A DNA stretch of 64,000 bases, taken from positions 310,001 through 374,000 of the forward strand of contig JANQQE010000030.1 in the NCBI GenBank assembly GCA_028285105.1, given 5' to 3'. Below the pieces are notes generated by a model. It did not search any database. It was not told the origin of the DNA and saw only the letters and a program-made list of their open reading frames with translations. The stretch comes from Alphaproteobacteria bacterium (GTDB lineage Bacteria > Planctomycetota > Phycisphaerae > UBA1845). The position numbers and the translations under genes were made by a program. Within the stretch, counting starts at the first letter, position 1. Every line of letters begins with the position of its first letter. This document shows, one piece after another, positions 24,041 to 34,374 of the stretch.

Positions 24041-24793
24041 TTAGTCGTCGTTCAATTGCGCAAAAATGTCATCGGGGATGTCAACATTGGATGAAACATT
24101 TTGCGTGTCGTCGTGATCTTCCAATGCATCCATCAACTTGACGATCTTCCTCGCCGAATCGAGATCGACGGCCACTGTGGTGTCAGCCACCATCGAAATC
24201 TCAGCCGACTGGATGGGAATTTTGGCAGATTCGATCGCGCCCTTCACGGTGAGGTAATCATCCGGCGAGCAGCTGATCTCGTGGCAGATCGGACCGGAGT
24301 CGATGTCTTCCGCCCCGGCTTCCAGCGCAACCTCCATGATCTTGTCTTCAGCAATGGCGTCGGCACCGACCACGATCACGCCACGCTGCTTGAACATCCA
24401 CGCGACGCTACCGACGGCTCCGAGATTTCCACCTGCACGCTCGAAGATTTTTTTGATCTCTGGTGCGGTTCGCGCACGATTGTCGGTCAGCGCCGAACAC
24501 ATGACAGCCACCCCACCCGGAGCGTACCCTTCGTAGATACACTCTTCATAGTTAACACCGTCAAGACCGCCCGCCCCCTTCTTGATGGCCCGTTCGATCG
24601 TGTCGCGGGGCATGTTGGCTGACTTGGCTTTGTCCACCGCAAGTCGCAACCTCGGGTTTGCTTCCGGATCGCCCCCACCCAATTTCGCGGCGACGGTAAT
24701 ATCGCGCGACACCTTGCTCCAGGCCTTGCTGCGTTTGGCGTCGGTGGCGGCTTTCTTGTGTTTAATCGTGGACCACTTTGAGTGACCTGACAT
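24041..24793 (-). CDS. yebC: YebC/PmpR/TACO1 family protein
   Basis: 250 residues, the usual family length. It opens MSGHSKWSTIKHKKAATDAKRSKAWSK and continues with PRLRLAVDKAKSANMPRDTIERAIKKGAG and YEGYAPGGVAVMCSALTDNRART, the classic YebC signatures. Family members were described as transcriptional regulators and more recently as translation factors helping ribosomes through proline stretches; mitochondrial TACO1 is the homologue. The acidic C-terminus (DIFAQLNDD) is normal. AAGGAA precedes the start. The long TPR gene lies 88 bp upstream on the same strand. Confidence 0.95.
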   Translation of the reverse strand: MSGHSKWSTIKHKKAATDAKRSKAWSKVSRDITVAAKLGGGDPEANPRLRLAVDKAKSANMPRDTIERAIKKGAGGLDGVNYEECIYEGYAPGGVAVMCSALTDNRARTAPEIKKIFERAGGNLGAVGSVAWMFKQRGVIVVGADAIAEDKIMEVALEAGAEDIDSGPICHEISCSPDDYLTVKGAIESAKIPIQSAEISMVADTTVAVDLDSARKIVKLMDALEDHDDTQNVSSNVDIPDDIFAQLNDD

Positions 24794-24881: not shown

Positions 24882-27800
24882 CTATTCATCGGAAAAAGAC
24901 CTTTTCACCACCGTTGCAACATTGGGCTCTGTTCCGTTCTCGACCGATTCCAGCCGTTGTTTTGCATTCTGCACAGCGCGCCGTGTCGGGCCGCTGACGG
25001 GCGGACGGGCCAACGCCTTCTCGGCCATTTCCAAGCCCTCTTTCCACCATTTGACAGCATCATCACGGTCGCCCAACTGCCAGCAAGTGTCACCCATGTG
25101 TTCGCAGATTACCGGGTCTTCGCCGTCGAATCCGCGACGGGCCATCGCCAACCAACGCTTTGCTTCGGCGAACTCGCCCTTCTTGTAATGCACCCATCCA
25201 AGACTGTCCAGATAGGCACTGTTTCTAGGTGAATCGCCCACGGCAAGGCGAATCATGTTTTCAGCCCGGTCCAATTCCAGACCCGTGTCGGCCAATGTGT
25301 AGCCCAGATCGTTGTGCAGACCGACGTTGGTCGGGTCAAGTTTGAAGTATTTCTCCAGCGCTTCTCGGGCACCGTCGAGGTCTCCCGATTCCTGATACGC
25401 AAATGAAAGCAAGCTTAGATACAAGTACTCCGACTCGATCGACCCGGCATTGCGGGCTTGCTTAAGCCAGCGGTTGAGTCGATCGACCGCCTCAGCCGCT
25501 CGGCCATGATTTATCAAGACCTGCACCACTGCCTGGCGAAGGAAACCGTGAATTTCAATATTATCCGCCATCTCCTCATCACTGACCGCCATCATTCCTT
25601 CAATGACGTCGATGGCTTCGTCAGGTTGCCCGCTGACATCATAGGTCAATTGCAGTTCATTGAGATACAACTCCTTAAACGCCCCATCGACTGCGCTATT
25701 CTTGGCCAGAGCGATGGCTTCATCGAATTGATTCGTCTCCCGCAGGAACGCAATCATCGTCGTGTGGAGTCGATCGTTTTGCGGATCGCTTTCGATCGCC
25801 TCCAACAACAGTTCCATTACCTCGCCCCGTTGATACGACGGCAAATCGCGCCAAATGACATTCAGGTCGCCTCGCGCAAAACCGCCGGGTATGTCGGTCT
25901 GCCATCGCTTGATCAACTCCATCGCCCGGTCATGCTTTCCAATTCCCTGGCAAATGTTAATCAGGTACAGGAGAACGCCCGGGTCATCGCTGGCTCTCAG
26001 TCGCATCAACTCGAGTTCTTTCAATGCTGCGGAATCGTTGCCTAGCGCGCGATGGATCGCCACGATTTTCGTACGAATCTGGCGGACATATGCCGGATTG
26101 GAATCCGAATCTTCGATCAACTGGCGGCCATAAACCATGGCCGCTTCGTAGCGCTGAACGGTCAAGAGTAACTCAAGCAAGTTATTCTTCCATACCGCTC
26201 GGTGCGGATGCCGCTTCAGTAATTCTTCTTGCAAGACGAGCGCATCTTCGAATTCCAGGTTTCGCGTGCGACACTCCATCAGCATGCTGGTCAATTCGAT
26301 GTTGTTCGGTTCCATCTGCCGCGCCGATTCCAACGCAGCAATTGCATCCGGCCAATTCATTTGCTGCATATACGACAATCCGATCAGTTGCAGCGAGTCC
26401 ACGTCCGGTTTGGATGCATCGATCGCATTCTGAAGTGTCTTGCGAAAACGATCGTAATCCGGGTTGCTTGCATTGAACTCGAGCGCCGCAATACACCGTG
26501 CCACCACCGTCGGCGCTGCGCGATGAACGCGCATCTTTTGAATCTGCTCCGCGGCTGCTCGGCGATCACCGTTATTGATATGATTCAAGCAAAGACGACT
26601 TCGCGCTTCGTCGTTAAACGCATCGATGCGGAGGATTTTTTCCAATTGCCTGCGCGAGGCGACCGTTCTGTTGGCTTCATCGTACAATTCAGCCAGCTCG
26701 AGCATGGCATCGATGTTGCCACGGTGCAGTCGGATCGCCGATTCGAAATGTTTGATGGCCGATTCCGGGTCGTCCAAACCGCGATAGGCCTGACCCGCGA
26801 TCGCTTCGAGCCTCGTGTCTCGGTCAAACTGATACTTCTTGGGCGCAGCAATGTCGATGGCTTCTTGCCATTGCCAGCGATCCAAAAAAATCCGAGCGAG
26901 CGCGACTCTGGCTGCAACGAATGCAGGACGTTCTTCGAGCGAATGCTCCATCCAAGTCTGGCCGGCATCGCGCTCATCGAACGCCAGCGCCACCTGCCCC
27001 AAGACGTAAGATTCGGCGAAATCGCTCGCTTTTGCCAAGTGGTTCCCTGTTGCAAGGTGTGCCAGGTCGGAGTTCTCGTTGATCTCGGCGTGCGATCGAA
27101 TCCAGTTGGTGACTTCCGCTGCCGCATCCGTTCGATTTCGCACGGCTTCAATCATCGCCTCAATCGCCGGATTCCAAGCGCCGGCTGCCAGAAAGACTTC
27201 AACTGCCGTCCCGATCGTCTCCAGTTTCGCAGAGGGCGATTCGAGTTGACTCTCCATCAACCGAACAGCTTCGTCCTTGCGGTCCGATTCGATCAGCGCC
27301 CGGGCGTACGCGCTCGTGACTTTTGGGCTAGCGTCACCACCTTCAATGGCACTCTCAAACGCCTCGACGATGGCGTCGGGACGGTTCTGATGCGCATAGA
27401 TTGCCATCAGCACTTCAACGGCTTCGGGCTGCATCGAAAGTGCATCACGAGCATGTCGAATGGCTTTGTCCATATCGCCCGCGCGGGCGTACAACTTGGC
27501 ATGATCGATCAATTCATGCGGTTGGATGTCGAGATCGTCCTTCAATGAATCGAGATACTCAACGGCGCGAGCGTATTGACCAAGTTTCGCATGAGCCCAT
27601 GCGAGTTGCTCGTACTCGTGTTTCTGATGGCGAACGAGTTGATGGTAGAGTTGCTTGTGTTCTTCGAGTTCTGGAATATAAACGGTAGACCTTGCGGTGA
27701 TCGCAGTATAGAGATCGATGGCAGCTTGAATGTATCCTTCAGCGAGAAGCAATGCACCCAATTCGCCTTCGGCTGCGCGTGCGAACATGCTGCCGTCAAC

Positions 27801-28334
27801 ATCGCCCGAACACGCCAAAGTCTTTCGATATTCCAGGATCGCAGTCTCATTTTCAAACCGACTTGCTGCCAGTCGACCCAAAATGTAGTGACACGTTGTG
27901 TCATCTTCGCCTTGCTTCAGCGATTGTTCAACGTGATAGCGTGCCCTTTTGTAATCGCCGGACAACCACGCGGTCAGCGCCAGCGCTCGAACGATCCGCC
28001 GATCGCCTGCTGCGATTCGCTGCGCTTTCTCCAACTCGATCAGCGCTTCCGTATAGCGCTCTTCACCTCGCAGCGTTACCGTTCGATCGATCGCACGAAC
28101 AACCCGATCCGGCAACGGGTCGGCAACCGCATCGTCATGCTCGATTTCGATGACCGGTTTCAACTCGTCAAAAGGAACATGCGCTTTTTCAGAATCGAGT
28201 TCAGGCGATTGGTCTCGAAATATATCTTCCGACGAAACCGAGTCCGCTGCCTGAATCGTCCCGCACAATGCCACAGCGTTTACGATAACTGCCAGCCCGA
28301 CGCAGAATCGGAATCCACGATTGATTCTAAACAT
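24882..28334 (-). CDS. large exported tetratricopeptide repeat protein
   Basis: 1150 residues from ATG 28334, which has AAGGAG seven bases upstream; the frame back to 28439 is not needed. A signal peptide is likely (MFRINRGFRFCVGLAVIVNAVALCGTIQAAD). Most of the remainder is built of TPR-like helical pairs with the A-x-x-x-L-E-x-A pattern, for example ALIELEKAQRIAAGDRRIVRALALTAW, AIKHFESAIRLHRGNIDAMLELAELYDEANR and AENMIRLAVGDSPRNSAYLDSLGWVHYKKGEFAEAKRWL. At least fifteen units can be seen. It is probably a periplasmic scaffold for protein complexes. There is no catalytic domain and no membrane anchor at the C-terminus. The upstream neighbour is the HhH-GPD gene (178 bp gap). Confidence 0.85.
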   Translation of the reverse strand: MFRINRGFRFCVGLAVIVNAVALCGTIQAADSVSSEDIFRDQSPELDSEKAHVPFDELKPVIEIEHDDAVADPLPDRVVRAIDRTVTLRGEERYTEALIELEKAQRIAAGDRRIVRALALTAWLSGDYKRARYHVEQSLKQGEDDTTCHYILGRLAASRFENETAILEYRKTLACSGDVDGSMFARAAEGELGALLLAEGYIQAAIDLYTAITARSTVYIPELEEHKQLYHQLVRHQKHEYEQLAWAHAKLGQYARAVEYLDSLKDDLDIQPHELIDHAKLYARAGDMDKAIRHARDALSMQPEAVEVLMAIYAHQNRPDAIVEAFESAIEGGDASPKVTSAYARALIESDRKDEAVRLMESQLESPSAKLETIGTAVEVFLAAGAWNPAIEAMIEAVRNRTDAAAEVTNWIRSHAEINENSDLAHLATGNHLAKASDFAESYVLGQVALAFDERDAGQTWMEHSLEERPAFVAARVALARIFLDRWQWQEAIDIAAPKKYQFDRDTRLEAIAGQAYRGLDDPESAIKHFESAIRLHRGNIDAMLELAELYDEANRTVASRRQLEKILRIDAFNDEARSRLCLNHINNGDRRAAAEQIQKMRVHRAAPTVVARCIAALEFNASNPDYDRFRKTLQNAIDASKPDVDSLQLIGLSYMQQMNWPDAIAALESARQMEPNNIELTSMLMECRTRNLEFEDALVLQEELLKRHPHRAVWKNNLLELLLTVQRYEAAMVYGRQLIEDSDSNPAYVRQIRTKIVAIHRALGNDSAALKELELMRLRASDDPGVLLYLINICQGIGKHDRAMELIKRWQTDIPGGFARGDLNVIWRDLPSYQRGEVMELLLEAIESDPQNDRLHTTMIAFLRETNQFDEAIALAKNSAVDGAFKELYLNELQLTYDVSGQPDEAIDVIEGMMAVSDEEMADNIEIHGFLRQAVVQVLINHGRAAEAVDRLNRWLKQARNAGSIESEYLYLSLLSFAYQESGDLDGAREALEKYFKLDPTNVGLHNDLGYTLADTGLELDRAENMIRLAVGDSPRNSAYLDSLGWVHYKKGEFAEAKRWLAMARRGFDGEDPVICEHMGDTCWQLGDRDDAVKWWKEGLEMAEKALARPPVSGPTRRAVQNAKQRLESVENGTEPNVATVVKRSFSDE

Positions 28335-28512
28335 GGCACTACTCCTTACGGCTACGACCGGACGATTGAGAATGCGCAATCGATAGAAGCCATTTACTTT
28401 AGATAATATACGCCGTGCGGCAGGTGGCGAGAATCGCATGGTATTGACATCGGCAGCGGACGGAGCCTGGGTTCAACACGAAGTTCGTCGGCAGCGTTGG
28501 TGGGGTTAGTAT

Positions 28513-29319
28513 CTACCTTTTGGAAGCCGTTTTTTTCTTCTTTGTTTTGGACTTTGTGGCTGATTTATTCTTGGCTGAGCCCTTCTTCTTAACCGCCGAT
28601 TTCTTCTTGGCGGTACCGTTTTTCTTGGCTGTCGATTTCTTTTTGGTCTTTGCTTTTCCCTCTGTCAGCTTTGTTTTGGGTGCCTTGCTGGATTTGGATT
28701 TACCGTTCAGCCCGAATTTCCTGGACCTCACAACCGCGTCCAGGTCCATGCAGAATTCCTTCGCGTCCGAAGAACTCACATGCCGCTCAAGGAAGGATTG
28801 CACTTCCGCGCTGCTGGCATTTGCATCGACGAGATCGTTTTCCTTGAGGAACTCAAGCGCCACATCGTTGACCGGAATGGCATGTCCGCCAAGACTCCAC
28901 AACATCACCGACGCCATTGTGTAAGGCGTGATCCCGTCAAGGTCGGAAAGATAAGACTTGATCTCGCGTACGCCCTTGGAAGAAAGGTGCTCGAGCGAAA
29001 TCGTGTATTCCAACTGAAATACGGCATTGAGTACGGTCAACAGAGTCTTGGCGCGCTGTACACTTCGCGGAATGTGTTTGCTGATCGACGACGAGACTTC
29101 GGCTGGCGTCGAAACGCGCAACTCGTTGTAATCGACCATGTCGTCAAGAATCTGCGAAAACGCTTTCTCGGCGCGGTCGAGCGAGGTTTCCTGACTGAGC
29201 ACCGCGAGAATCAACTGCTCGACGGGCGGCCGAACATCCGGCGGTTCGCTGGTCCGTTCACCGCGAAACTTGCTGTACGCCTGCTTGATTTTCTTGCCAT
29301 AGAGAGTCCCGTTTTTCAT
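28513..29319 (-). CDS. HhH-GPD-like protein with degenerate active site and histone H1-like lysine tail
   Basis: 268 residues. Residues about 30-200 follow the endonuclease III/HhH-GPD helical fold: PPVEQLILAVLSQETSLDRAEKAF, then YLSDLDGITPYTMASVMLWSLGGHAIPVNDVALEFL. In active glycosylases the hairpin reads LPGVGRKTA with a catalytic Lys, and the next loop holds an Asp in VDTH. Here the Lys is absent and the Asp position is Asn151 followed by Asp152. The 4Fe-4S cysteines of EndoIII are also missing. Residues 203-268 are a low-complexity Lys/Ala/Ser/Thr tail (AKKKSAVKKKGSAK), like histone H1 and other bacterial nucleoid proteins. The start codon overlaps the rbfA stop (ATGA), so the two are translationally coupled. 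Confidence 0.7.
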   Translation of the reverse strand: MKNGTLYGKKIKQAYSKFRGERTSEPPDVRPPVEQLILAVLSQETSLDRAEKAFSQILDDMVDYNELRVSTPAEVSSSISKHIPRSVQRAKTLLTVLNAVFQLEYTISLEHLSSKGVREIKSYLSDLDGITPYTMASVMLWSLGGHAIPVNDVALEFLKENDLVDANASSAEVQSFLERHVSSSDAKEFCMDLDAVVRSRKFGLNGKSKSSKAPKTKLTEGKAKTKKKSTAKKNGTAKKKSAVKKKGSAKNKSATKSKTKKKKTASKR

Positions 29320-29777
29320 GGCTGGACTCCGTCTTCTGATTGATTTCTATTCATCTCTTCAACCGCATGTTCATCTAGCTCGGTGACAACATCATCGCCT
29401 GATACTGGGTCATCGTCGGATGCTGGCCCCATTTCTGCCGCGTTGGTGTTGATGATCTCCATGATCTCAGCCGCTTTCTTGATCGAGTGGTCGCTCACGA
29501 ACGTCAGATGAGGACAAACGCGCGCCGACACTCCCTTGGCCACTGCCCGCTGAATCAACCCCTGGGCGCTCTTGAGACCGCGCATCGTGCTGCGCTGCTC
29601 TTCTTCGCTGCCCATCACGCTGATATACACCTTGGCGAGTTGCAGATCCGGAGCGACTTCGACCTTGGTCACGCTGACGAACTTTCCGATTCGCGGATCG
29701 TGAACCTTGTTCGCGATCATGTCACTGGCGATCGACCGGATCAGGCTGGCCATCTTGTCTGTACGAAATGATTTCAT
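29316..29777 (-). CDS. rbfA: ribosome-binding factor A
   Basis: 153 residues. The KH-like RbfA core is clear: RTDKMASLIRSIASDMIANKVHDPRIGKFVSVTKVEVAPDLQLAKVYISVMG, then LKSAQGLIQRAVAKGVSARVCPHLTFVSDHSIKKAAEI. RbfA assists late 16S rRNA processing of the 30S subunit. After the core comes an acidic tail of about 35 residues. It lies in the expected nusA-infB-rbfA order, with DUF503 just upstream (74 bp), and overlaps the HhH-GPD gene downstream by 4 bp. No truB or rpsO follows, unlike many bacteria. Confidence 0.93.
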   Translation of the reverse strand: MKSFRTDKMASLIRSIASDMIANKVHDPRIGKFVSVTKVEVAPDLQLAKVYISVMGSEEEQRSTMRGLKSAQGLIQRAVAKGVSARVCPHLTFVSDHSIKKAAEIMEIINTNAAEMGPASDDDPVSGDDVVTELDEHAVEEMNRNQSEDGVQP

Positions 29778-29851: not shown

Positions 29852-30133
29852 CTAGAGAATCTCCTTTTCAAACGACAATAACGAGGCAACCGAGTCCCGC
29901 TGAGCCACCGCGACGATCTGATCGAAACATCCGTGAACCAACTTGGGGTCGTTGGAAACCATCGCAACAGCCAATCCCGCCCGTTGACGAAGTTCCTGAT
30001 GTTCGACCTCGGCCACCGAGACGTTGAACCGATTGGAAATACGCTCCTTCAAACTCTTCACGACGCGCCGCTTATCCTTAAGCGACTGCGCTTCATAAAC
30101 CACCAACTCCAACGTGAGTACGCCAACGACCAT
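29852..30133 (-). CDS. DUF503 (YlxP-like) protein
   Basis: 93 residues: VVGVLTLELVVYEAQSLKDKRRVVKSLKERISNRFNVSVAEVEHQELRQRAGLAVAMVSND is the full DUF503 signature. The family is small and almost always encoded between infB and rbfA, as here, which points to a role around ribosome maturation. Its biochemical function is not established. It is probably part of the nusA-infB-rbfA transcription unit. Confidence 0.92.
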   Translation of the reverse strand: MVVGVLTLELVVYEAQSLKDKRRVVKSLKERISNRFNVSVAEVEHQELRQRAGLAVAMVSNDPKLVHGCFDQIVAVAQRDSVASLLSFEKEIL

Positions 30134-30187: not shown

Positions 30188-31303
30188 CTAAGGATTGACT
30201 CGACGCGAGATCACCGCACCGTTGACCGGATCGATTTTGAAGAGGCGGTATGAACCGTCTTCCTTGTTTTCATAACTGCACACACCAACGCGCTCCAGAG
30301 CGTCTTCGACGTACGTTTGGACATCACTTGGAACTTGATAGAAATCCAATTCGCGTTGTGCTTGCAGCAGCTCGAATCCATAACTTGAATTGCGAGGCAG
30401 ATGCTCAATCGTATCTTTGGGCGTCAATTTTCTTGGCAGGAACATTGCGGTGGTCGTCTCCCACGTTTGGCTGTCTACCTCGCACTCAAACACCCGCACC
30501 AAATGCAGCGCGCCTCGCAGTTTTTCAACTCGCGTCGCCACGCTACCATCGGGAACAAAGTAATCGCGAATCTTCTTGTCGATATCTGCGTCGTTTCTTT
30601 CAATATCCCTACGCAGTTTTTTATACTCGGGAAGGTCCATCAGTTCGGCTTCATTGATTCGAATCGCCACTGCGATCGTATGCCTACCCGGTTTAAGTCG
30701 AAGTGCCCTATTCGTACGAACATTCTTGTTGGCCATTGGGTCATCGAGGATGGAACCAGTCACCGATGTCTTCGCCAGATGGTAAATCCCAGCCCCTGAA
30801 GGCACGCTGCTCACATAGACGCCTTCTTGCTGACTGTTCAGCGATTCGGACATCAAGCCCATGCGTTTCCGGGGCGCCGATCTGTTGTTGCTTTCCTGTT
30901 GGCGATCTTCCTTTGCCACCTTGGGCGGCGGTGATGACTCACCGGTCAGACTTTTGTACAGACCGGGCACATACTTGTACCCCACGACAATCAAGATCAC
31001 GATGACCGCGACATAGGTCATTTTCATCGCAATGTCGAACGGGTCAAAAGCGTTGGCCGGCTTACCTGCTGCCAGGCGCTTCTCTTGTCGCGCTTTGGTC
31101 TTGTGGTATTTCTGACCTACTTTTGTGGCTTGGGCGTCGTACGAACCGGTTTGCTCGACCTGATCGAACAGCAGATCGAGATCGTCCTGGGCTTGGCGCG
31201 TTACCAATGCCTCCTTACCGCAATACGAACAACGGACGATCTTTCCGGAGTCCTCATCTCGCGCCCGAATGGTATGGCCGCATTCGCCTTTGAATTCAAT
31301 CAT
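30188..31303 (-). CDS. zinc-ribbon, single-pass membrane protein of unknown function
   Basis: 371 residues. The N-terminal 30 residues form a zinc-ribbon-like unit (ECGHTIRAR...VRCSYCGKEALV). A membrane helix follows at about residues 92-113 (MTYVAVIVILIVVGYKYVPG). The distal part includes VYVSSVPSGAGIYHLAKTS...LRLKPGRHTIAVAI, which resembles a PEGA-type surface domain, and then a region without a known match. The topology suggests a cytoplasmic zinc ribbon and an external C-terminal part. It sits between infB and DUF503 on the same strand, an unusual insertion in that operon. The gap to infB is 206 bp, so it may have its own promoter. Confidence 0.65.
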   Translation of the reverse strand: MIEFKGECGHTIRARDEDSGKIVRCSYCGKEALVTRQAQDDLDLLFDQVEQTGSYDAQATKVGQKYHKTKARQEKRLAAGKPANAFDPFDIAMKMTYVAVIVILIVVGYKYVPGLYKSLTGESSPPPKVAKEDRQQESNNRSAPRKRMGLMSESLNSQQEGVYVSSVPSGAGIYHLAKTSVTGSILDDPMANKNVRTNRALRLKPGRHTIAVAIRINEAELMDLPEYKKLRRDIERNDADIDKKIRDYFVPDGSVATRVEKLRGALHLVRVFECEVDSQTWETTTAMFLPRKLTPKDTIEHLPRNSSYGFELLQAQRELDFYQVPSDVQTYVEDALERVGVCSYENKEDGSYRLFKIDPVNGAVISRRVNP

Positions 31304-31509: not shown

Positions 31510-34374
31510 CTACGAATCGTCTGCTGCCGCGGCGGCTGCCTCTTCCAGCGTACGCGCGGTCTTGATGACTTCATACGTTTCGATCATGTCGCCAGCCTTG
31601 ATGTCGTCAAACCCTTCAAGCCTGATACCGCACTCCATACCGTTGCGTACTTCTTTCGCGTCATCCTTGAACCGGCGAAGCGACTCAAACTTGCAGTTGT
31701 CGCGTATCAGCACACCGTCGCGAACCACGCGGGCAAGGTGCTTGCTCGAAATCGTACCCTCGCGAACATAACTTCCTGCCACCAATCCAAGTTTTGAGAT
31801 ACGGAACAGTTCGCGAACTTCCGCCGCACCCCGGGACTCGATTTTCTCATCGGGGGCAAGCAACCCTTCGAGGGCTTTCTTGATGTCATCTGTGACGTCA
31901 TAGATGACCTTGTAGTTCCGCACATCGACATTCTTCTGCTCCGCCAACTTTCGCGTTTTTGATGGAACAGACACGCGATAGGCGATGATGATCGCATTGG
32001 ATGCGTCGGCAAGGTGAATATCACTGTCGGTGATCGATCCGATACCGGCATGAAGCACGTTCAAACGCACCTCATTGTCCGGGAACTGCTGGAGCGTCTG
32101 CACCAGCACATCGACCGAACCGTCCACGTCGGCTTTGACAATGACGGGAAGTTCCTGCACATCGACACCGCTACGCATCTTGACCAGGTCTTCAAGGCTT
32201 CGGGCCTTCTTGACCGAAGACCTCGCGTCGCTGACCCGCTGATCTTTGACTTCTTCGCCAACCTGCTTGGCCCGCTGCATGTTTTCGACGACGAAGAATT
32301 CGTCACCCGAAGAAGGCACCTCGCTCATGCCCCAGATTTCAGCGGGCATCGCCGGACCGGCTGATTTGATCGATTTGCCGCGATCATCGCGAATCGAACG
32401 AACCTTGCCATATGCATTACCGCAAACCACGACGTCCCCGACCTTCACCGTTCCATCGCGTACGATCACCTGCATCACCGGACCTGCACCCTGACGATTC
32501 TCGGCTTCGATGACCACACCGGACGCGGGGATGGTCTTGTCGGCTTGGTACTCGTGAAGGTCCGCCAACGTCGAAAGATGCTCAAGCAATTCATCGACGC
32601 CCTCACCGGTCGTTGCCGATGTATGGACGACATCGATGTCACCACCCCAATCGCCTGCGGGGGTGAGCCCATGCTCGGTGAGCTGCGTATAAATCCTGGT
32701 GACGTTTTGCGTACCGAGGTCAATCTTGTTGAGCGCGACGACGATCGGCACTTCTGCCGCCTTCGCATGGTTAATGGCTTCAATCGTTTGCGGCATGATT
32801 CCGTCGTCGGCAGCGACGACCAACACCACGACGTCCGTCACCTGCGCACCACGGGCACGCATCGCCGTAAACGCTTCGTGGCCGGGTGTATCCAGGAACG
32901 TTACCGACTTTCCAGCGACGTTATAATGATACGAACTGATGTGCTGCGTGATACCACCGTCTTCACCAGCCGCAACTCGGGCTTTTCGGATCCGGTCGAG
33001 CAAGCTGGTCTTGCCGTGATCGACGTGACCGAGAATCGTAACGATGGGAGGCCGGCGTTTGAGTTTCTTGCGCTCCAGTGCCTCATGTTCTTCTTTGACT
33101 TTGTCCATACCCGTCTTGGCTTTGACAATGGTTAACTCGACACCCAGTTCCGTTGCCACCAATTCGGCAACTTCGGTCGGGATCACGCTCGTGACCGAAA
33201 GCATCAAGCCATGTTCTTTTTGGAATATCGGGAACAATCGCTGGAAGGGTACACCCAACCCGGCACAGAACTGCTTGACCGTGATCGGTTCTTCCAATTG
33301 GGCTTCGGTAATTGGCGCAACTTCCACACGTCCGCCGCCGCCACCGCTCTTGCTGCGGGCTCGGCGCGAAACAAGACGCCTACCCGTCGCACCCCGCAAA
33401 CGGGCGCGACGTTCAGCAAGATCCTGATTGTTCCACTCGCTCAGACGTTCACCGACTTCGCGTTCGTGCAGGCTTTCACGACGACCCGACATCTTGCGGC
33501 CGCTCGATTTCTGTTCGACAGCTTTACCGCGCCGCTTACCACCCCGATCTGGCTGACCTGGCGCATCTCCCGGAACGACTGCCGGTCCACGAGCCGCAAC
33601 ACCCTCAGACTCGGTCTTTTTGGGTCGGCGCGGTCCACGTTTGGGAATCGCATATTCTTCCGGCGCTTCGTATCGAACCACGCGCGGTCCGGAGAGCTTC
33701 GCGGGCGCTGGAACGTTTTGCGGCCCTGCCGGAGCAACTTCCTCCGGTTCCGACGGCGCTTCATCAACCGTCGCTTCATCCGTCGCGGGAGACTCTGTCG
33801 CAACTTCAGCAGCCGCATCCAATGTTCCCGTAGACGATATGTTTTCTGCTGACGGGTCAGTTGCCGACTTGTCCGACTCAACAACTTCGGAATCGGCAAT
33901 CGCAACGTCGCCTGGCTGATCGCCGACTTTTGTCAACGTCGCTGCGTCCACCTCTACAGACGTGCCTACTTGTTTCTTGGCGGTTGTCTTGCCGGTCTTG
34001 GATTTGGGCTTGGCGTCAGTCGTCTCTGCATCGGCGACAGCAGATGATTCCGGCGCTTCAAGTTCTGCGACTGCGGTTGCCGAATCGGACTCGCCACCCG
34101 CCGAAGTCGCTGCCGACTTGGACTTGGCTTTGGCTTTGCGCTTCTTCTTGGCTTTGCTGCGCGCCTTTTCGAGATCCACCCTTTTGGTCTTTTCGACGAC
34201 GTGTACGTGCGCGCCCTCGCTGAACCACTCGCGCACCGTCGCCTCAAGTCCCGGACCGAGGGTAGACATATGATTCTTCAAGTCTATTTCCTCAGCACGG
34301 CACTTCGTCAGGATGTCTTTACTTGTGACGTTCAGTTCCTTTGCAAGGATGTGAACGCGCATTTTTTCAGCCAA
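31510..34374 (-). CDS. infB: translation initiation factor IF-2
   Basis: 954 residues. The IF2-N domain is at 5-50 ([34 protein letters not shown]). A long low-complexity Ala/Glu/Lys region follows (60-350), then a second IF2-N-like unit ([19 protein letters not shown]). The G domain begins at about 445 with GHVDHGKTS (449-457), DTPGHEAF and NKID, and the C1/C2 domains follow. IF-2 delivers initiator tRNA to the 30S subunit. The start codon is probably TTG at 34374: GGAG stands seven bases before it, whereas the in-frame ATG at 34362 is too far from that site. nusA lies 87 bp upstream. Confidence 0.96.

Follow-up and report, generated by a model that had tools for sequence, protein, structure and literature searches.

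The window, the whole stretch of 64,000 nucleotides that was analysed, carries on its minus strand a gene termed X here, which is embedded in a run of genes that includes infB and rbfA. The features assigned to X and its surroundings are as follows.

24041..24793, minus strand: yebC/TACO1 family gene, downstream of X and a recurrent neighbour phylum-wide
24882..28439, minus strand: 1185-aa TPR protein, downstream of X
28513..29319, minus strand: gene X, a degenerate HhH-GPD/EndoIII-fold protein of 268 aa with an ATG start (ORF, PDB phmmer, profile, AlphaFold)
28516..28713, minus strand: Lys-rich low-complexity tail of X, residues 203-268, fast-evolving
28732..29319, minus strand: folded core of X, residues 1-196 (AlphaFold pLDDT 95 and alignments), conserved phylum-wide
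28867..28869, minus strand: Asn-151 of X in the catalytic-Asp position, the residue before helix 152-160 (helix N-cap)
28915..28941, minus strand: degenerate hairpin LDGITPYTM of X, residues 127-135, with Tyr-133 in the catalytic-Lys position
29110..29133, minus strand: motif D-Y-N-E-L-R-V-S of X, residues 63-70, comprising the helix C-D loop and a short helix, the family's best-conserved element
29316..29777, minus strand: rbfA (PF02033, 3.9e-31), the TGA stop of which overlaps the ATG of X (ATGA)
29852..30133, minus strand: DUF503 protein between infB and rbfA, kept in many genomes of the class
30188..31303, minus strand: 371-aa protein with a zinc-ribbon-like N terminus, in the same gene run as infB, rbfA, and X
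31510..34374, minus strand: infB, translation initiation factor IF-2 (GTP_EFTU and IF-2 domain matches)

All of these genes are read from the same strand, with infB, the 371-aa protein, the DUF503 protein, and rbfA upstream of X and the TPR protein and yebC downstream. X and rbfA overlap by 4 nt, the sequence CCATGA linking the rbfA stop (29316) with the X start. The 371-aa protein has no Pfam family above cut-off; its start resembles a LysW zinc ribbon, and it is conserved between infB and the DUF503 gene in many relatives.

The single X sequence has zero matches in Pfam, and neither the Pfam nor the NCBIfam scan finds a RimM domain in it. Sequence comparison gives a weak phmmer match in the PDB to Deinococcus radiodurans drEndoIII-1 (0.002) and an NCBIfam match to NF053634, "monofunctional DNA glycosylase," at 1.6e-6 and far under cut-off. 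A profile of 38 members from the same class strengthens the relationship to 5e-13 for drEndoIII-1 and 7e-8 for ROS1. The AlphaFold model (mean pLDDT 95, pTM 0.90) superposes onto D. radiodurans EndoIII-3 with a Z score of 18.9 (rmsd 3.1, 195 residues), ROS1 (Z 17.1, rmsd 3.7, 192 residues), EndoIII-1 (Z 16.9, rmsd 4.2, 193 residues), and the EndoIII-DNA complex 1orp (Z 15.7, rmsd 3.3, 181 residues). The two-domain all-helical glycosylase fold is present in the models of both the window protein and a member linked to rpsP (L097). In the alignment the hairpin LPGVGxKT becomes LDGITPYT in X, the catalytic Lys being replaced by Tyr-133 and the second hairpin Gly by Thr-131, such that G-x-G reads GIT. 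The VDTH segment becomes VNDV, placing Asn-151 at the catalytic Asp and Asp-152 one position further on; Tyr-133 and Asn-151 correspond to Lys-120 and Asp-138 in EndoIII numbering. In the model Asn-151 immediately precedes helix 152-160. The whole protein has a single Cys and thus no four-cysteine iron-sulfur cluster. X is therefore an HhH-GPD/endonuclease III fold without the catalytic Lys or Asp. The original prediction, made from the letters of the window, had described such a fold with the catalytic Lys absent, Asn-Asp at the Asp position, and no iron-sulfur cysteines, encoded in a translation operon from a start that overlaps the rbfA stop, and the model, the alignment, and the domain matches agree with it on each of these points.

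Four ordinary HhH-GPD proteins are encoded elsewhere in the same genome, as located by a PF00730 search, and X is not among these four matches. Across the family, PF00730 at 1e-3 matches only 2 of 69 diverse members (best 1.7e-4), so that X is essentially uncatalogued in Pfam, and X genes that are annotated risk being labelled as DNA glycosylases.

Orthologues of X are found in 40/40 genomes of the order and 118/120 of the class, including all 105 of the good class genomes. Matches to the class profile occur in 185 of the 199 phylum genomes, some of them being ordinary EndoIII proteins. Outside the class, an N-x-x-R member is held by 99 of the 100 genomes with fetched loci, a figure that is not a prevalence since these genomes were chosen from the better-scoring matches. 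A wider profile (A3), applied to 34 genomes of which most had given weak or no matches, matched 28, with the motif in two only (G160 and G204) as judged by a simple pattern that a divergent member could escape. The eight genomes of one family, f67 (99-100% complete), gave only ordinary EndoIII-type matches with A3 and no motif-bearing match. These genomes (G195, G215, G232, G249, G264, G293, G307, and G332) are seemingly without X, RimM, and RimP. X is thus common, not universal, in Planctomycetota. A scan of genome contigs with a close query gave four loci. A mobile or phage origin was rejected, as tblastn found no match in 72,556 plasmid records and none of the 12 stretches that fit the pattern in a scan of viral contigs encodes a relative.

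The family set used for residue counts holds 178 distinct domains after removal of identical domains, duplicates (L035-L038, from genomes already counted), and ordinary HhH-GPD proteins (L001-L004, L111, L120, and L137). Asn-65 is kept in 177/178 and Arg-68 in 178/178. At the catalytic-Lys position a Lys occurs in 0/78 class members and 2/92 aligned others, and no member of the 178 has both the catalytic Lys and Asp. The hairpin is gapped in some members, and its second Gly is found in 4/78 class members and 14/94 aligned others compared with 18/18 EndoIII-type proteins, which were picked via the hairpin pattern so that some of their hairpin and Asp letters are fixed by construction. A joint alignment of 175 X members with these 18 proteins, taken from fetched stretches that derive mostly from the A3 search, illustrates two opposite patterns. 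In the EndoIII-type proteins the B-C loop, the hairpin (Gly/Thr/Ala), the catalytic Asp, and the following Arg are conserved, and all of these are variable in X. Conversely, Asp-63, Asn-65 (174/175), Glu/Asp-66, Arg-68 (175/175), and Val-69 are nearly invariant in X and variable in the EndoIII-type proteins. Judged by helix order, the C-D motif loop would be placed at the far end of the helical barrel, away from the DNA-contacting B-C and D-E loops. These counts give good support to the proposal that X is a repurposed repair fold that has ceased to be a glycosylase, and orthologues with an intact catalytic pair, which would have spoken for an enzyme, are absent from the 178.

Ten pairwise comparisons among five sequences give the X core a dN/dS or pN/pS of 0.035-0.21, which places it under purifying selection. 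For the window member against four near genomes the core dN/dS is 0.035-0.10, with a pN/pS of 0.21 where dS is saturated, and the corresponding tail ratios are 0.17-0.48. Together with the class-wide conservation, this rules out a passenger ORF.

Linkage to rbfA, put forward from the window alone, is a property of the class. Of the 79 distinct members within the class, 78 have rbfA directly upstream of X, a count that includes L074 (genome G055), which belongs to the class, and the one exception (L025) has a sequence that begins 140 nt before the X gene. The two genes overlap by 4 nt in 53/78 class loci (ATGA 41, GTGA 10, and TTGA 2). The 99 distinct members outside the class are distributed over several contexts, with distances measured between the ends of profile matches and limits of 700, 1200, and 1300 nt. 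In 37 of them rpsP is upstream of X, typically as ffh-rpsP-X and often with maf next; rbfA is directly upstream in 15; yebC is within 1.3 kb downstream in 27 and farther off in 5; and in the remaining 15 none of the three genes is nearby. Six of the 27 yebC-linked loci (L165, L171, L174, L178, L185, and L190) also have infB-rbfA at a distance of 2.4-4 kb upstream of X, an arrangement that falls between the rbfA-linked and yebC-linked forms. On an X tree of 136 rows, many inner branches of which are weak, the rbfA, rpsP, and yebC labels need 4, 5, and 7 changes, and none of 500 shuffles is as low. Such contexts favour a link to translation or the 30S subunit over one to the nucleoid. A recurrent protein near ffh-rpsP-X (cluster c10, e.g. 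L148:1-1284) has two matches to the RNA polymerase α C-terminal domain together with TPR.

In Escherichia coli the gene order is ffh-rpsP-rimM-trmD-rplS, and rimM fills the slot after rpsP that X occupies in 37/99 members outside the class. RimM is a PRC-barrel domain protein, as described in a review (PMC9032327), compared with the all-helical glycosylase fold of X, so any likeness would be one of role only. By PF01782, RimM is found in 0/199 phylum and 0/120 class genomes, and neither PF01782 nor TIGR02273 finds it in the genome that carries the window. TIGR02273 matches in 1/199 phylum genomes (G240). This sole match (G240:C21:452-736) is partial, covering positions 66-164, and comes from a genome that is 86% complete, possibly as contamination. 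RimP is present in 20/199 phylum and 0/120 class genomes, and RbfA in 191/199 phylum genomes; all ten bacterial controls were positive in the RimM, RimP, and RbfA searches. A 2025 survey gives more than 90% conservation of rimM and rimP in non-CPR bacteria, and its main text has no word starting with "Planctomycet" (PMC12641178). The review cited above also notes that a rimM deletion is compensated by extra rbfA dosage (PMC9032327). A literature search by title and abstract, with subscription journals mostly outside its scope, returned no account of X or of RimM loss in Planctomycetes.

X is a conserved dead glycosylase that is apparently translationally coupled to rbfA, occupies rpsP sites in other lineages, and occurs where RimM and RimP are scarce. 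The best reading of this combination is a factor for 30S maturation or for translation. We consider X to be a non-catalytic EndoIII descendant acting in ribosome biogenesis or translation, most likely a 30S maturation factor made alongside RbfA or S16, with a probability of about 0.6. The HhH-GPD repair fold has lost its catalytic residues and would have been kept as a non-catalytic protein, co-produced with RbfA or, depending on the lineage, with S16. X would bind the ribosome, with the invariant D-x-N-E-x-R-V loop presumably docking on the pre-30S particle or on a protein partner and the basic tail perhaps adding non-specific affinity for rRNA, and it may fill the RimM/RimP niche. Replacement of RimM by X is possible and attractive, though not established. 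A strict form of it is less probable given that at least one family (f67) is seemingly without both proteins, which means that RimM was lost there without X or before X. A fuller history is more tentative than the role itself and somewhat doubtful as a whole, namely that the repair fold was recruited to 30S maturation early in Planctomycetota, with loss of the active site and fixation of the N-E-x-R loop, and that it took over RimM/RimP work and moved between the rbfA and rpsP operons. Genomes of this phylum in which RimM and RimP are missing or scarce raise the question of their route of 30S maturation, and X is a conserved candidate in the same operons. If X is a 30S factor, it would to our knowledge be the first protein with an HhH-GPD fold to take part in ribosome assembly. 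Two observations run counter to this reading. The 15/99 members outside the class near none of the three genes weigh against a 30S role, and a four-cysteine iron-sulfur motif, which a scaffold does not need, is kept in 44/178 members, a point against a purely scaffolding function. The neighbourhood is in any case not proof of the role of X, since runs of mixed housekeeping genes can contain yebC or rbfA.

An unlikely alternative, though the first to be weighed, is that X is not an assembly factor but a translation-associated RNA-binding factor that acts in initiation, in NusA coupling, or at stalled ribosomes with YebC. The runs nusA-infB-rbfA-X, which is the rbfA-linked form, and X-yebC would fit such a factor. 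However, infB and nusA are common in the rbfA operon anyway, and the tightest partners of X, rbfA and rpsP, are genes of the small subunit or of its assembly. That X is a DNA-binding structural or lesion-recognising protein without catalysis is quite unlikely; this would make it similar to Schizosaccharomyces pombe Mag2, with the tail as an H1-like nucleoid tether. It draws on the glycosylase fold, on the presence among the Foldseek matches of Mag2, a glycosylase homologue described as sculpting DNA at abasic sites, and on the Lys-rich tail of most class members. Mag2 is known for binding DNA rather than excising bases and belongs, unlike X, to an AlkA-like branch, and we know of no link between it and ribosome genes. 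In EndoIII the B-C, D-E, and hairpin loops contact DNA, and these are the loops that vary in X and are conserved in the 18 EndoIII-type proteins. The tail also evolves fast, and the translation-gene neighbours recur in three contexts.

The tail itself, beginning after about residue 203 and rich in Lys, Ser, Ala, and Thr, is the least conserved part of X, with a pN well above that of the core. At least 15 residues with at least 25% Lys plus Arg are found in the tails of 58/78 class members and 53/100 members outside the class (L074 being counted with the latter set here), and in many members it is different or missing. Bacterial H1-like proteins share the Lys/Ala-rich low-complexity character, which in X is confined to the tail, an appendage on a folded domain that is absent from many orthologues. 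Of the H1-like tail and DNA-binding role in the original prediction, the existence of a Lys-rich tail stands, and the role fits poorly with its weak conservation and with the 30S and translation contexts; at most the tail would have an auxiliary part.

A living monofunctional glycosylase, acting through a retained Asp or the shifted Asp-152, is very improbable and was discarded as the principal interpretation, since both catalytic residues never occur together in a member of the family. An Asp does occur at the catalytic position in 49/78 class and 33/84 aligned other members, and the weak NF053634 match lies in the same direction. In the class, however, this position reads Asp 49, Asn 16, Thr 6, and Ser 2 (73/78 in total), before helix 152-160. 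These four residues are favoured at helix N-caps, so partial conservation there needs no catalysis; the window member has Asn and a degenerate hairpin. Equally improbable is an unrelated housekeeping protein riding conserved operons by historical accident, a reading in keeping with the 15/99 members lacking all three neighbours and with the few independent context changes, and set against the 4-nt start-stop overlap in 53/78 class loci and contexts that differ yet all involve ribosome or translation genes (rbfA, rpsP, and yebC).

The preferred 30S reading extends the original prediction to a phylum-wide family with rpsP and yebC contexts, missing RimM and RimP, and relatives that retain iron-sulfur cysteines. 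If it is true, a base-excision repair scaffold has become a non-enzymatic RNA or protein binder with living intermediates in which the cysteines are kept and catalysis is lost. The motif C-x6-C-x2-C-x4-6-C follows the core in these 44 relatives and is absent from the window member. It is found in 3/78 class members and, with L074 again in the outside set of 100, in 19/37 rpsP-linked, 4/16 other rbfA-linked, and 8/27 yebC-linked members and 10/20 with neither. The simplest reading is that X descends from an iron-sulfur endonuclease III resembling DR2438 (drEndoIII-1, NF053634). D. radiodurans EndoIII-1 and III-3 share the fold of the whole core and are the best PDB sequence relatives of X, which differs in lacking the hairpin Lys, the Gly-x-Gly, the fixed Asp, and, in the window member, the iron-sulfur cysteines, and in having the N-E-x-R motif and the Lys-rich tail. 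Arabidopsis ROS1 of the DME/ROS1 glycosylases is similarly close by structure (Z 17.1) and sequence (7e-8); unlike X, it is an active multi-domain demethylase with catalytic residues and an iron-sulfur cluster. A profile of 26 rpsP-linked members matches EndoIII-1 at 2.3e-24, and the model of the rpsP-linked member L097 (pLDDT 93) aligns with EndoIII-3 over 221 residues (Z 16.3, rmsd 7.7).
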